Assembly (NCBI RefSeq): GCF_004216535.1
Contig: NZ_SGWX01000001.1
Location: 2,976,001-3,040,000 of the forward strand
From: Xylanimonas ulmi
GTDB lineage: Bacteria; Actinomycetota; Actinomycetes; Actinomycetales; Cellulomonadaceae
Reading direction: 5' to 3'
Length of the DNA stretch: 64,000 bases
In this document: piece after piece, positions 9,824 through 51,583 of the stretch
Numbering within the stretch: position 1 is the stretch's first letter
Layout: each line of letters opens with the position of its first letter
The notes under the pieces: generated by a model
Databases searched by the model: none
Seen by the model: the letters and a program-made list of their open reading frames with translations, nothing else
What the model was told of the DNA's origin: nothing
Program-made: the position numbers and the translations under genes

Positions 9824-12001
9824 TCAGTGACCGGGCCCGTCAGCGGCGTCGCGCTTGGCCATCCGATCCAGCATCGCGTTGTACTCCTCCAGTTCGGCGT
9901 CGCCGTCGCGCTCGGCCTGACGGTCGCGGCGGCGCGCCTCACGCTCGTCCGAGCGCGCCCACAGCACGGCCACGGCGATGGCCAGCGCGAGCGTCGGCAG
10001 CTCGCCGATGCCCCATGCGATGTCGCCGCCACGCTGTTGGTCGGCGATCGCCGAGCCGCCCCACGCGCGGCCCATATTGCCGAACCAGTCGGCGGCCAGC
10101 AGCGTCGTCTGACTCATGAGCGCCACACCGAAGAACGCGTGGAACGCCATCGTGGCGAACAGCAGGATGATCCGCTGCGGGTAGGGCGGACGGCTGGGCC
10201 CCGGGTCGATGCCGATGAGCGCGTTGGCGAACAAGTACCCCGCGAGCGTGAAGTGCACGACCATCCACACGTGCCCGACGTGCGAGCGCAGCGACCAGTC
10301 GAACAACGGTGTGTAGTAGAAGACGATCATCCCGGCCACGAACACCAGCCCGGCGATCAGCGGCTGGGACACCGTGCGACCCCACCGCGAGTGCACGAAC
10401 CCGAGCACCCACTCGCGCGGCCCGCGTGACCCGTCGCGCCGCCCGGGCACCGCACGCAGCAGCAACGTGATGGGCGCGGCGAGCACCAGCAGCAGCGGCA
10501 CCAGCAGCGCGAGCACCATGTGCTGGACCATGTGCGCGCTGAACAGCACCTCGCCGTAGATGGTCGGGCCGCCGTTGGTGTCCCACGCGACGACGGCGAC
10601 GCCCAGGCACCAGGCGATGGTGCGGCCCACCGGCCAGCGGTCGCCACGACGGGCGAGCCGACGCACCCAGGTCAGGTAGACGACGACGGCGGCCGCGCAC
10701 GCGAACGCGAACAGCGGGTCGAGCCTCCACTCCGTGACCCACCGCGCTCCGGTCAGCTCGGGAGGCAGCGGCGATCCCGTGAGCTGGTAGGCGGGGCTGG
10801 TGTCGATCGCGACGTCGTCGCGCACCGGCGGCGCGGAGGCGGCCAGCCCGACGGCGACGCCCATGACGGCGCCCATGACGAGCACCTCGACGGCGGCGAG
10901 CCGTGCGAACAGCCACGCCCGCGCCGGCCCCAGCGCCGCCACGCTCGACCCAGGACGCTGGGTCACGCGGGCCGTCGCATGGACGCCGTCGCGCCCGGCG
11001 GACAGGTCGCGCAGCACCCGACGGCGATGCGCCAGGCCGAGCGCGCCCAGACCCGCGAGCAGCACGGCCTTGGTCACGAGCAGGATTCCGTACCGAGTGC
11101 CCAGATCGCCGAGGTCGCCGACCCGGATCCACGCGGACACCACGCCGGAGAACCCGACGGCGACCAGGCACCACGAGGCGATGATCGAGAAGCGCGGCAC
11201 CGCGGCCTCCCACGCCGTCACGTCCCCGGCATCCCCGGCGCCCCCTGCGCCGCCTCGCCGGGCGTCGCTCCGGGCGCCACGGGCGCCACGGCGGGCGTCA
11301 CGCTGCGCGACGATCACCAGCACCCCGATCGCGCCCAGTCCGCCGACCCACAGCGCCGCGCCCACCAGGTGTAGGAACATCGCGCCGACCGCGAGCGTGT
11401 GGCTCGCGGCGCCCGCAGCGTGGCCGGTCGACGACTGGTAGGCGAACGCAGCGAGCGGCGCCAGGCACGTCCACAGCGCGCCCACCGCCCCGTTGACCGC
11501 GAGCGCCAACGCCGAGGTCACCGCCGCGAGGATCACGATCGTCAGGTTGGTGCGGCCGAGCTCGATCTCGGTCAGGAACTGCCACAGCCCGGGCCCGAAG
11601 CCGGGGGCGTCGAGCCGCGTCGCCGAGATGTCCGCGTACTGCAGCACCAGCTCCGCCAGGCCGGCGAGCGCCCAGACCGACGCGGCGACGCCCGCCGTCG
11701 TCAGCGCTGTGCGCTGCGCTTTGCCCGGGGCGACCAGCGCGGCCGCCGTCACCAGGGCGCCGAGGGTCAGCGCCGAGGCCAGCTCGGCGAGCACGGAGAA
11801 GACCGGCCCACCCCAGCGCACGACGGCGCCCGCGTCAGCGAAACCCTCGAGCGCGGCGAACGCTCCGGTGAGCGCGCCCGCGCCCCACGCCGCCGCCAAC
11901 GCCACCACGACGACGGCCGGGCCGACCGCGACCAGCCACCGCGCGCGATTGCGAGGCTCTACGGCGGAAGTTGCGACGTCGGAGGTGGAGCGCACGGTCA
12001 C
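9824..12001 (-). CDS. CopD/CtaG fusion: copper resistance and cytochrome c oxidase assembly protein
   Basis: This is a 725-residue polytopic membrane protein. Residues about 20-370 form a CopD-like copper-handling domain (LWVGGLGAIGVLVIV, GVVSAWIRVGDL), with a hydrophilic alanine/arginine-rich insert near 245-265. Residues about 430-690 are a caa3-type CtaG domain (FSAHMVQHMVLALLVPLLL, FYYTPLFDWSLRSHVGH, MAFHAFFGVALM). This fusion is usual in actinobacteria and serves copper delivery to cytochrome oxidase. The start is GTG 12001. The arginine-rich C-terminal tail (about 685-725) is cytoplasmic. The upstream gap carries the cruciform repeats. No oxidase subunit genes are nearby. Confidence 0.93.
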   Translation of the reverse strand: MTVRSTSDVATSAVEPRNRARWLVAVGPAVVVVALAAAWGAGALTGAFAALEGFADAGAVVRWGGPVFSVLAELASALTLGALVTAAALVAPGKAQRTALTTAGVAASVWALAGLAELVLQYADISATRLDAPGFGPGLWQFLTEIELGRTNLTIVILAAVTSALALAVNGAVGALWTCLAPLAAFAYQSSTGHAAGAASHTLAVGAMFLHLVGAALWVGGLGAIGVLVIVAQRDARRGARGARSDARRGGAGGAGDAGDVTAWEAAVPRFSIIASWCLVAVGFSGVVSAWIRVGDLGDLGTRYGILLVTKAVLLAGLGALGLAHRRRVLRDLSAGRDGVHATARVTQRPGSSVAALGPARAWLFARLAAVEVLVMGAVMGVAVGLAASAPPVRDDVAIDTSPAYQLTGSPLPPELTGARWVTEWRLDPLFAFACAAAVVVYLTWVRRLARRGDRWPVGRTIAWCLGVAVVAWDTNGGPTIYGEVLFSAHMVQHMVLALLVPLLLVLAAPITLLLRAVPGRRDGSRGPREWVLGFVHSRWGRTVSQPLIAGLVFVAGMIVFYYTPLFDWSLRSHVGHVWMVVHFTLAGYLFANALIGIDPGPSRPPYPQRIILLFATMAFHAFFGVALMSQTTLLAADWFGNMGRAWGGSAIADQQRGGDIAWGIGELPTLALAIAVAVLWARSDEREARRRDRQAERDGDAELEEYNAMLDRMAKRDAADGPGH

Positions 12002-12172
12002 CCACCCAGCCTAGGCGAGCCAATCCCCCAATCCCCCACTCCCCCACCGCCGCCCGGCCCCCACCCGCCCAGGCCCGCCACACCAACCCCCGCCCCCCGC
12101 CAACCCGCGCCCACCCCACCAGCCCCCGCCCCGAACTCCCCGGTCGCCGACCCCGCATCCTCCCCCCACGGT

Positions 12173-12273
12173 GTTCGAGCATCCGCGCGGTGTTCGAGCA
12201 TTCGTCGCGGTGTTCGAGCCCCCGGGCGCTCGAATTGGGCCCAACCACTCGACATTCGCGCGAATGCTCGAAC
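12173..12273. repeat. TTCGAGCA cruciform repeat, unit A
   Basis: This is a 101-base unit with left arm GTTCGAGCATCCGCGCG (12173-12189) and right arm CGCGCGAATGCTCGAAC (12257-12273), complementary except one C/T difference that still allows a G-U pair in one strand. Inside are another GTTCGAGCATTCG copy and a CGAGC...GCTCG hairpin around GCCCCCGGGCG. It lies in the noncoding 12002-12607 gap downstream of the E2 gene. Confidence 0.85.
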
Positions 12274-12309
12274 TCGCCCACCCGGTACCCGAGGGCCCCG
12301 CCACACCGT

Positions 12310-12410
12310 GTTCGAGCATCCGAGCCGTGGTCGAGCAATCGGCGCGGTGTTCGAGCCCCCGGGCGCTCGGATTAGGACCAACCGCTCGAACACGGCTCGG
12401 ATGCTCGAAC
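12310..12410. repeat. TTCGAGCA cruciform repeat, unit B
   Basis: This second 101-base unit has perfectly complementary 20-base arms: GTTCGAGCATCCGAGCCGTG (12310-12329) and its reverse complement at 12391-12410. Its middle repeats unit A (GTTCGAGCCCCCGGGCGCTC) almost exactly. Where unit B differs from A in one arm, the other arm changes to match. Confidence 0.88.
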
Positions 12411-12607
12411 TCGGCGGCGGCCCATCCGGGGGCACGGCGGGCGGGAGCGGGGCGCACGGCGGTCAGCGGGCGCACGCGGGCGCGGGCGCGGGGCAGCGGT
12501 CGGGGCGTCCGGTCGGCCGGGGTGCCCGGACGCGGGGCAGCGGTCGGGCTGGGCGACCGGACGCGGTGGCGGAACGGGCTCGAACCGCGGGGGCGCGGGT
12601 GGGTGGA
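12411..12607. other. GC-rich gap with two direct repeats, no gene
   Basis: The remainder of the gap before the E2 stop has no credible gene. It holds two direct copies of GCGGGGCAGCGGTCGGG (around 12490 and 12532), each followed by related GGTC/GACCGGACG sequence. The stretch 12002-12172 is C-rich and also shows no gene. Confidence 0.5.
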
Positions 12608-14245
12608 TCAGAGCCAGACGAGGCCGCGGGCGGGCTCCTCCAGGACGCGCGCGACGTCGGACAGGAACCGCGAGCCGAGCTCGCCGTCGACGAGGCGGTG
12701 GTCGAAGCTCAGCGCGAGCTGGGTGACCCAGCGCGGCTTGATCTTGCCGTGGTGCACCCACGGCTGCTGGCGGATCGCGCCGAACGCGAGGATGCCAGCC
12801 TCGCCCGGGTTGAGGATCGGTGTGCCGGTGTCGATGCCGAAGACGCCCACGTTGGTGATCGTGATGGTGCCGTCGGACATGTCCGCGGGGGTGGTGCGGC
12901 CGGCGCGCGCGGTGGCCGTGAGGTCGGCGATCGCCCGGGCGAGGTGGAGCAGGTCGAGGCGGTGGGCGTCCTTGATGTTGGGGACCACGAGGCCTCGCGG
13001 GGTCGCGGCGGCGATCCCGAGGTTCACATAGTGCTTGTAGACGATCTCCTGCGCGGCGTCGTCCCAGCTCGCGTTGATCTCCGGGTGTCGGTTGACCGCC
13101 ATGAGCACCGCCTTGGCGGCGATGAGCAACGGCGTGACCCGCACCCCGGTGAACTCGCGGTCCTCCTTGAGCGCCGCGACGAGCTTCATCGTCTTGGTGA
13201 CGTCGACCGTGTGGAACACCGTGACGTGCGGCGCGGTGAACGCGCTGGCGACCATCGCCTCCGCGGTGCGCTTGCGCACGCTCTTGACCGGCACACGCGT
13301 GCGTCGCGCGTCAGGCGAGACCGAGCCCGACGCGAGCCACGGCTGGTCGTCGTCCGGGTAGGTCGCCAACGCCTGCGGCTTGGCGCCCTCCGCGTGCGCG
13401 ACGACGTCCTCACGCGTCACGATGCCGCCTGGGCCCGTGGGGAACACCGAGGCGAGGTCCACGCCCAGGTCCTTGGCGAGCTTGCGCACCGGCGGCTTGG
13501 CGAGCACCCGGCCGAACGACGACGTCGCGCCCGCCGCGGGGACGGAGATCGCTCCGGGGTCCGGCGCGACACGGGCCGGGGCCTGGGCGGCGGCGGCGCG
13601 GGGTGTCTCGACAGGCTCGACCACCGGGGCGGCCGGGCGGCGGGGGGTCTCGACAGGCTCGACCACCGAGGTGGCCGGACGGCGGGGGGTCTCGACAGGC
13701 TCGACCACCGAGGTGGCCGGACGGCGGGGGGTCTCGACAGGCTCGACCACCGAGGTGGCCGGACGGCGGGGGGTCTCGACAGGCTCGACCGCCGAGGTGG
13801 CCGAGGTGGCCGAGGTGGCCGTGGCGGCCTGGGCGGCCGCCGCTGCGGTGCGGCGGCGTCGTCGGGCGGGGGCGGCGCCCTCGGCGGTTCCATAGCCGAC
13901 CAGCACCGAGCCCGAGCCCGAGTCCTGCGCCGTCTCGCTCTGCGCCACGGCGTCGGCGGGCGGCGTCGGCGCCGAGGCCCCCGACGGCGCGGCGGGCGCG
14001 GCGGCGTCGGTCGTGACCTCGATGATCGGCGTGCCGACGTCGATGGTCTCGCCCTCGGCGACCAACAGCGCCGTCACGGTCCCCGCCCAGGGCGAGGGCA
14101 GCTCGACCAGCGACTTGGCGGTCTCGATCTCGACGATCACCTGGTTGACGGCCACGGCGTCGCCGGGCTGGACGCGCCACTCGACGATCTCCGCCTCGGT
14201 CAGGCCCTCCCCGACGTCGGGCAGGGGGAATCGCTGCGTGCTCAC
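12608..14245 (-). CDS. bkdC: 2-oxoacid dehydrogenase complex E2 (dihydrolipoamide acyltransferase)
   Basis: This 545-residue protein starts at GTG 14245, preceded by GAGAGGA. It has an N-terminal lipoyl domain (about residues 3-78, lipoyl lysine in EIETAKS at about 44), a long linker, an E1/E3-binding domain (about 255-290, VRKLAKDLGVDLASV) and a C-terminal acyltransferase domain with the active-site motif SFDHRLVDG near 515. The linker (about 145-215) is built from five VEPVETPR units of the hairpin repeat, with a 42-base period. It transfers acyl groups from E1 to CoA. It is third in the E1 alpha, E1 beta, E2 operon. No E3 (lipoamide dehydrogenase) is present. Pyruvate specificity cannot be excluded. 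Confidence 0.92.
   Translation of the reverse strand: MSTQRFPLPDVGEGLTEAEIVEWRVQPGDAVAVNQVIVEIETAKSLVELPSPWAGTVTALLVAEGETIDVGTPIIEVTTDAAAPAAPSGASAPTPPADAVAQSETAQDSGSGSVLVGYGTAEGAAPARRRRRTAAAAAQAATATSATSATSAVEPVETPRRPATSVVEPVETPRRPATSVVEPVETPRRPATSVVEPVETPRRPAAPVVEPVETPRAAAAQAPARVAPDPGAISVPAAGATSSFGRVLAKPPVRKLAKDLGVDLASVFPTGPGGIVTREDVVAHAEGAKPQALATYPDDDQPWLASGSVSPDARRTRVPVKSVRKRTAEAMVASAFTAPHVTVFHTVDVTKTMKLVAALKEDREFTGVRVTPLLIAAKAVLMAVNRHPEINASWDDAAQEIVYKHYVNLGIAAATPRGLVVPNIKDAHRLDLLHLARAIADLTATARAGRTTPADMSDGTITITNVGVFGIDTGTPILNPGEAGILAFGAIRQQPWVHHGKIKPRWVTQLALSFDHRLVDGELGSRFLSDVARVLEEPARGLVWL
13596..13806. repeat. Five in-frame VEPVET-type repeats in the E2 linker
   Basis: The core GGTCTCGACAGGCTCGACC occurs five times at 42-base spacing, each followed by ACCGAGGTGGCCGGACGGCG or a variant. 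On the coding strand each unit reads VEPVETPRRPATSV. A shorter GAGGTGGCC triplet repeat follows at 13795-13820. The length is a multiple of three and the frame stays open. Confidence 0.93.
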
Positions 14246-14279
14246 GGATGTCCTCTCTGGGGCCTGGTCAGGGGCCTGG

Positions 14280-15362
14280 TCAGTAGGCGAGCGAACGGTC
14301 GACGGCGTCGAGCACGCGCTCCACGCTCGGCAGGTAGTCGTGCTCGAGCTTGGCCACGGGGTAGGGCGCGTGGAAGCCGCCCACACGGATCACGGGCGCC
14401 TCCAGGTGATGGAAGGCCTCCTCGGTCACGCGGGCCGCGACCTCGGCGCCCACGCCGTGCGCCGACGGTGCCTCATGCACGACGACGCAATGGCCCGTGC
14501 GCCGCACGCTCGCCACGACGGCGGGCACGTCGAGCGGCGAGATCGCGCGCAGGTCGACCACCTCGGCGGCCGTGCCCTCGCCGGCGAGCGCGTCGGCGGC
14601 CTTGAGCGCGGTGGCGACCGTGGGGCCGTAGGCGACGATCGTCACGTCCGTGCCGGGGCGGGCGACGCGGGCGGTGTCGAGGATCCCGGCCGCGGGGGCG
14701 GCGTCGAGGTCGACCTCTCCCTTGGACCAGTACCGGCCCTTGGGCTCGAAGAAGATGACCGGGTCGGGGGAGGCGACGGCCGCGCGGATCATGTCGTACG
14801 CGTCCTGGGGCGTCGACGGCGAGACCACGCGCAGGCCCGCGGTGTGCGCGAACAGCGCCTCGGGGCTCTCGGAGTGGTGCTCGACGGCGCCGATGCCGCC
14901 GCCGAACGGGATGCGGATGACGACGGGCACGCGCAGGCGCCCCCGTGAGCGGTAGTGCATCTTCGACAGCTGCGTGGTGATCTGGTCGAACGCCGGGAAC
15001 ACGAACCCGTCGAACTGGATCTCGCAGACCGGCCGGTAGCCGCGCAGCGCCAGGCCGATCGCGGTGCCGACGATGCCCGACTCGGCGAGCGGCGTGTCGA
15101 CCACGCGGTGCTCGCCGAACTCGGCCTGCAGGCCGTCGGTCACGCGGAACACGCCGCCGAGCCGGCCGACGTCCTCGCCCATGATCAGGGCCTTGTCGTC
15201 GTCGGCGAGCGCCGCGCGCAGTCCGAGCGTGATGGCCTTGGCGAACGTGAGGGTCGCCACGCCCGACGGCGCGGGGGGCGCCGCGGGGGCCGGTGCGGTG
15301 GTGGTGGCAGCCGCGGGCGCGGCGGGCGCCGCGGTCGTGGGCTCCAGCGCCTGGGCGGTCAT
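14280..15362 (-). CDS. bkdB: 2-oxoacid dehydrogenase E1 component, beta subunit
   Basis: This 360-residue protein starts at ATG 15362, which overlaps the E1 alpha stop (ATGA). After an alanine/proline-rich N-terminal 35 residues comes the transketolase-type pyrimidine domain (TFAKAITLGLRAAL, MGEDVGRLGGVFRVTDGL, DTPLAESGIVGTAIGLA, QIQFDG-like EIQFDGFVFPAF) and a C-terminal domain (VDLRAISPLDVPAV, VVVHEAPSAHGVGAEVAA). It pairs with E1 alpha in thiamine-diphosphate-dependent decarboxylation of a branched-chain 2-oxoacid (or pyruvate). The Ala/Pro N-terminal extension is unusual but follows a good start position. Confidence 0.93.
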   Translation of the reverse strand: MTAQALEPTTAAPAAPAAATTTAPAPAAPPAPSGVATLTFAKAITLGLRAALADDDKALIMGEDVGRLGGVFRVTDGLQAEFGEHRVVDTPLAESGIVGTAIGLALRGYRPVCEIQFDGFVFPAFDQITTQLSKMHYRSRGRLRVPVVIRIPFGGGIGAVEHHSESPEALFAHTAGLRVVSPSTPQDAYDMIRAAVASPDPVIFFEPKGRYWSKGEVDLDAAPAAGILDTARVARPGTDVTIVAYGPTVATALKAADALAGEGTAAEVVDLRAISPLDVPAVVASVRRTGHCVVVHEAPSAHGVGAEVAARVTEEAFHHLEAPVIRVGGFHAPYPVAKLEHDYLPSVERVLDAVDRSLAY

Positions 15363-51470: not shown

Positions 51471-51583
51471 GTTCGAGCATCTGCGGGATGCTCCAGCGGA
51501 GTTCGAGCATCCGTCGAGGTGTTCGAGCAATCGAGCGCTCGAACATCCACCCCATTGCTCGAACACCGCTCAAATGCTCGAAC
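51471..51583. repeat. TTCGAGCA cruciform repeat, relative C
   Basis: Located between convergent genes. GGTGTTCGAGCAAT (51518-51531) pairs perfectly with ATTGCTCGAACACC (51554-51567) around CGAGCGCTCG, and GTTCGAGCAT (51501-51510) with ATGCTCGAAC (51574-51583). An extra GAGCATC/GATGCTC hairpin is at 51475-51493. The rest of the 192-base gap has no gene. Confidence 0.85.

Follow-up and report, generated by a model that had tools for sequence, protein, structure and literature searches.

Dispersed palindromic motif arrays in Xylanimonas ulmi and the AbiEi-like gene paired with them: a probable REP/RAYT-like system on an unrelated nuclease-like protein

Two neighbouring inverted repeats in the genome of Xylanimonas ulmi raise the question of what kind of element they are and how they relate to similar elements elsewhere. 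In the window (the whole 64,000-nt stretch of DNA that was analysed), the initial annotation had described units A and B, each exactly 101 bases from arm to arm, and a further copy at 51471, as cruciforms with a conserved inner hairpin. The length of A and B and the third copy stand (Table 1), as does the conserved inner part, an inner core being common to A and B, but the architecture is not that of a single cruciform: these are arrays of a 13-nt motif, in which the two middle sites of A and B converge and overlap by CG to form the 24-nt core. Some sites of the A/B array are degraded, among them the site at offset 74 of A (3 mismatches). The perfect 20-base arms ascribed to B were recovered without mismatch (12310-12329 with 12391-12410), whereas the 17-base arms ascribed to A (12173-12189 and 12257-12273) pair at 16 of 17 positions, the mismatch being position 11. 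The claim that A has different outer bases that again pair was mistaken, because the first 13 bases of the left arm are identical in A and B; a matched arm change does exist (CGCG in A, AGCCGTG in B), but it is sited further in rather than outermost. We found GTTCGAGC 24 times in the window against a shuffle mean of 3.59, a count reached in 0 of 100 shuffles, and folding as single-stranded DNA gave z values of -4.4 for A, -7.8 for B and -6.0 for the 51471 copy.

Table 1. Positions of the motif arrays and their parts in the window
Feature	Position	Length	Organisation
Element A	12173..12273	101 nt arm to arm	six sites of the 13-nt motif GTTCGAGCNYYCG
Motif sites of element A	offsets 0, 19, 39 forward; 55, 74, 93 reverse		
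Core of element A	12212..12235	24 nt	two converging motif sites
Element B	12310..12410	101 nt arm to arm	plan as in A, perfect 20-nt outer arms
Core of element B	12349..12372	24 nt	
Third element	51471..51583		plan of A and B with 11 extra bases after the first site
Core of third element	51521..51544	24 nt	
Intergenic stretch with A and B	12002..12607		limits inferred from flanking frames

The reading frames adjoining the A/B stretch (9824-12001 and 12608-14386) both lie on the minus strand, and from its sequence we take the second to encode a dihydrolipoamide acyltransferase. Another repeat, GGTTTCGACAGGCTCAACCACC-like, has two palindromic copies at about 37830 and 38306 of the window, and this frame contains related 42-nt tandem copies at about 13615-13790; a search with the frame matched many more places in several genomes of the genus. 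A scan of the window against Rfam at the gathering score returned two tRNAs only and nothing at the repeats, so that a known RNA family was rejected for A and B and the suggested RNA role is unsupported.

The repeat family extends well beyond the window, as the initial annotation had anticipated: the host genome holds 22 elements with the core, in 21 places. With at most one mismatch, GTTCGAGCATYCG occurs 37 times per strand in the genome (3.97 Mb), where its reversed control gives 2 and 2. Among 99 genomes (the host and relatives), the close pattern was in excess in the host (34) and in G005 (5) and does not pick up the copies of G007, which read GTTCGAGCATTTG. A sequence model recovered seven distinct places in G005, seven in G007 and five weak ones in G004 (hand counts), together with three weak rows in G001, one of them an element and two resembling coding sequence. 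A looser core pattern applied to 212 genomes of the family, G007 not included, gave matches in five genomes of the genus and at five single sites outside it. The motif exists in variants, namely GTTCGAGC, GTTCGTGG or GTTCGTGC, and GGTCGAGG, and some of the sister species' copies are variant-motif elements. In other taxa the exact motif was found in 18 single stretches of genome contigs and in 2 of viral contigs, and the core was present at 0 of these 20; the genome-contig scan for the exact repeat may omit records of the host genome or of a very near one. We make no claim about gene orientation at the elements, since 10 of 35 sites fell within genes predicted by a simple gene caller. The genes between the close pair e3066/e3068, considered as transposase candidates, look ordinary by eye. 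A single host copy, e3944 (L036:2368-2431), has fully matching arms; it is a 64-nt hairpin of -44.1 kcal/mol as single-stranded DNA.

The search for a partner protein proved worthwhile. Outside the window, elements e3933 and e3934 bracket a minus-strand gene (G000:C1:3933349-3934533) whose product is AbiEi-like with a PD-(D/E)XK-like C-terminal part. The same gene with same-motif elements is present at the orthologous place in G005, where both flanks are alike, and gene and elements also occur in G007, where one flank is like the host's. AbiEi profiles of the PADLOC defence library match 45 of 45 members of the protein family, while Pfam at E up to 0.01 assigns AbiEi_4 to 14 of the 45, AbiEi_1 to 6, MTES_1575 to 5 and DUF559 to 2; NCBIfam gave 0 families for four proteins, and a protein-profile sequence search of solved structures gave 0 matches. 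Three residues, D257, E268 and K274, are the same in all 45 aligned proteins. A structure model (mean pLDDT 90) had no PDB fold match at E up to 0.001; its best matches are weak, to AbiEi (6y8q, E 0.012) and Rv2827c (E 0.037), with a weak nuclease match to Vsr (1vsr) at rank 25 (E 3.8). In the model, the order of helices and strands in the C-terminal part appears compatible with a PD-(D/E)XK core. This part resembles DUF559, REase_MTES_1575 and Vsr-like nucleases in topology as we read it, in the few Pfam matches and in the weak Vsr fold match, and differs from them in its fusion to an AbiEi-like part and its association with a cognate repeat; a link of DUF559 to a cognate repeat was not found in the open-access literature. 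Plasmid carriage of the protein was set aside as a lead, with just 4 records at 32-35% identity.

We then have to ask whether palindromes accompany this gene generally. The list of paralog loci in the genus had 30 entries; L125, a second piece of the gene at L120, was dropped, and the remaining 29 were scored regardless of motif, with weak and cut-off loci kept. A palindrome of at least 24 of 34 pairs was present on both sides in 17 of 29 and on at least one side in 22 of 29, a level reached by 0.25% of 400 shuffled segments and 3.5% of 400 segments from ordinary loci, some of which hold elements. At the level of the order, 16 of 29 loci had such a palindrome on one side and 8 of 29 on both; 8 of 29 genus loci and 13 of 29 order loci got to 24 on neither side or had only one side, below that level, 7 and 13 of them with none. 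At phylum level a clear left-right pair was found in only 4 of 29 (similarity 0.69 to 0.91), so that at this distance the link between gene and palindrome is either patchy or was missed by the search. As a separate observation, four genomes of family f22 (G483, G515, G536 and G585) carry 5 to 11 copies of the gene each (E up to 1e-25), and the one locus examined in G483, L183, has a left-right palindrome pair.

The motif differs from paralog to paralog, and the palindromes on the two sides of a gene match. In the 25 of 54 genus and order units that had a palindrome of at least 22 on both sides within the search windows, left-right similarity was 0.824 against 0.525 when permuted (0 of 5000), and the unit's own partner ranked first in 21, second in 2, and 17th and 19th in the remaining 2. 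Palindrome similarity also tracks protein similarity (Mantel r 0.463, 0 of 5000 permutations) across the 38 of 54 units with a palindrome of at least 24 on one side. The search windows of the 54-unit set missed some palindromes found in the scoring of genus loci, for example at L105, L116 and L117. We conclude that the gene is paired with the palindromes and that the two diversify together; no report of such a pairing was found in the open-access literature that was searched.

These correlations bear on one rival account of A and B, namely that the palindromes are only transcription terminators, mRNA stabilisers or chromosome-structuring sites and that the link to a gene is incidental. The A/B pair and the 51471 copy are indeed intergenic, and by eye relatives carry other arrays at the A/B site (G005, G008 and G010; none in G001, with a different gene order in G004 and G002). 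No T run follows A or B in the sequence, however, and both the left-right matching and the correlation between protein and motif would go unexplained, so we regard this account as highly improbable. In the stretches orthologous to window 12001-12608 (L129, L128 and L131), by eye, these palindromic arrays lie around CAGGTTCGCTGG, TTCGATGTAGTACC and TGTCAGACCCAC.

The placement of the palindromes around the gene is central to the main rival of a movement reading, in which they are operators: an AbiEi-like regulator would bind the array by its own gene, the dispersed copies would be a regulon or a reservoir of binding sites, and the C-terminal part need not act on palindromes at all. AbiEi of the AbiE system binds to palindromic repeats located in its own promoter, which it represses (PMC3985639), AbiEi profiles match all 45 proteins, and the upstream palindromes lie close before the gene start as we set it. 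Most two-sided units, however, have a palindrome also just past the stop codon, a place unexpected for an operator, and the nuclease-like residues are invariant; the 51471 element, moreover, lies between frames read as convergent, though by a simple gene caller that is unreliable. We consider an operator role unlikely on this balance. The protein shares with AbiE, a type IV toxin-antitoxin system, its AbiEi profile matches, the weak fold matches to 6y8q and Rv2827c and palindromes near the gene (PMC3985639); it differs in the extra C-terminal nuclease-like part, in palindromes that stand on both sides of the gene and are dispersed, and in having no AbiEii neighbour, as none was found by Pfam (E up to 1e-5) among 10 neighbours of 5 units.

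Protein and motif can be followed at a single place, since six species hold the gene beside one with a class I tRNA synthetase (E and Q) domain. There the flanking pieces are 78-93% identical in DNA, the identities listed for the proteins range over 52-78%, and the motif comes in four variants; one motif is common to the three closest proteins (L103, L108 and L109). At this conserved site the copy L113 (G001:C10:38570-39325) has an internal stop codon, and palindromes are still on both sides. The repeat to which A and B belong also brackets, at another place in the chromosome, a fast-changing nuclease-like gene, which argues for a partnership of gene and repeat. The GGTCGTCGG palindromes of the six-species site form a second family, and a model of them finds flanking copies as well as solo copies, the solo places numbering, by hand count, 4 in G000, 4 in G005, 6 in G004, 8 in G008, 6 in G010 and 1 in G001. 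In both G010 and G004, solo copies occur of motifs whose own gene was not found there; in G010 this applies to the 6 GGTCGTCGG solo places. In G005 (C1:2646560-2647133), two high-scoring GGTCGTCGG palindromes are separated by about 500 bases, in which partial copies recur every 19 bases. The rapid change of protein and motif at the six-species site, like the match of defence-library AbiEi profiles to 45 of 45 members, would suit a defence or toxin-antitoxin protein that acts on foreign DNA, the palindromes being decoys or self-marks. We hold this to be quite improbable, given the lack of an AbiEii-like gene in the neighbourhoods searched and given that decoys are not expected as dispersed chromosomal copies.

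The presence and absence of elements were compared between the host and its relatives. Nine host sites were flank-searched and five, picked for flanks matching together, were followed: GTTCGAGC was present in 0 of 20 orthologous stretches in relatives, with both flanks matched in 18 of these and one flank in two (G005 at e3066 and e1635). Choosing sites by jointly matching flanks biases the set towards empty sites. Some elements are nonetheless common to species, such as e0547 in the host and G005, and the place of e3068 in G004 holds an element with a variant motif. No insertion boundary or target duplication was recognised at the host sites, where the flanking intergenic DNA is too diverged to read, and by eye no such boundary with target duplication was seen at the G007 copies. 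The host copies are themselves diverged, which argues against recent movement in the host.

Compensatory change between the arms, which the initial annotation took as the sign of a maintained fold, is clear in G007 but marginal to weak in the host. G007 has seven similar 64-nt copies (six distinct), two of which lie next to the gene, and their arm changes are matched: both partners changed in 6 pairs, where 1.5 were expected (0 of 500 shuffles), and arm permutation gave p 0.002 (p 0.04 in G005, n=6). In the 22 host copies, by comparison, 8 pairs of the inner arms changed on both sides against 8.3 in shuffles, the full-stem covariation score was matched or exceeded in 39 of 500 shuffles, and 0 of 14 predicted inner-stem pairs were altered on both sides. 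Arm permutation in the host gave p 0.087 for the inner arms (n=22; linker part alone 0.050) and p 0.003 for the outer arms (n=7; linker part alone 0.0065), with opposite linkers matching slightly better than permuted ones. The host inner stem thus shows mainly conservation of the motif sequence rather than compensation, strict fold conservation in the host is unsupported, and the host copies resemble older versions in partial decay. Template switching in palindromes can also produce matched arm changes, so the two-sided changes in G007 do not by themselves prove a fold kept by selection. Neither outcome that had been named beforehand as refuting, an absence of further copies or of covariation, occurred, with 22 elements in the host and covariation in G007.

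The known system closest in plan is REP/RAYT. RAYT genes are described as lying between two inverted REPs, with which they co-evolve, and as changing at a higher rate than the neighbouring genes (PMC2817692). The likeness lies in short extragenic palindromes with dispersed solo copies (PMC2817692, PMC3116915, PMC3733652), in a gene between two cognate repeat copies, as the AbiEi-like gene is, in the joint diversification of repeat and protein and in a gene that outpaces its neighbours. Our repeats differ in being arrays of four to six 13-nt sites, in number (22 copies, against usually over 100 per genome in the REP paper) and in orientation, flanking REPs being inverted whereas here, by eye, direct orientation is commoner than inverted. 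The GT(A/G)G head was not found either: no such conserved block exists at the ends of the 22 aligned host copies. That A and B might be ordinary REPs moved by an HUH tyrosine transposase (RAYT), as extragenic palindromes on both sides of a gene could suggest, is extremely improbable, for PF01797 had 0 matches in the host genome, with control genomes positive in 5 of 14, and the partner gene family is unrelated. In place of an HUH/Y1 transposase there is an AbiEi-like protein with a PD-(D/E)XK-like part, and only a very distant HUH gene would be compatible with the PF01797 result.

RAYT transposases are thought to drive the spread and turnover of REPs, and we favour, as the probable reading, that A, B and the 51471 copy belong, as non-autonomous solo copies, to a REP/RAYT-like system that relies on an unrelated, nuclease-like protein. 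They would be solo palindromes of a family whose other copies bracket the cognate gene G000:C1:3933349-3934533; the N-terminal part of the AbiEi-like protein most likely recognises its own motif array, and the nuclease part would drive the spread and turnover of the palindromes. Recognition of the arrays is plausible because AbiEi of AbiE binds promoter palindromic repeats; we infer that the protein would bind, cut and copy the palindromes. More tentatively, such selfish gene-repeat systems may be widespread, an AbiEi-derived nuclease copying or homing multi-site palindromes in convergence with REP/RAYT and by PD-(D/E)XK-type rather than HUH chemistry.

The pairing links a misleadingly labelled type of gene to a definite DNA substrate on which binding and cutting can be assayed, and the many gene-motif pairs would provide a natural series of proteins whose DNA specificity has changed. 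Copying of palindromes by an AbiEi-derived nuclease, if true, would account for many solitary genes now annotated as AbiEi or DUF559 and classed with defence genes. Should this mechanism be borne out, at least two unrelated enzymes would have given rise to short extragenic palindromes that have a gene of their own.
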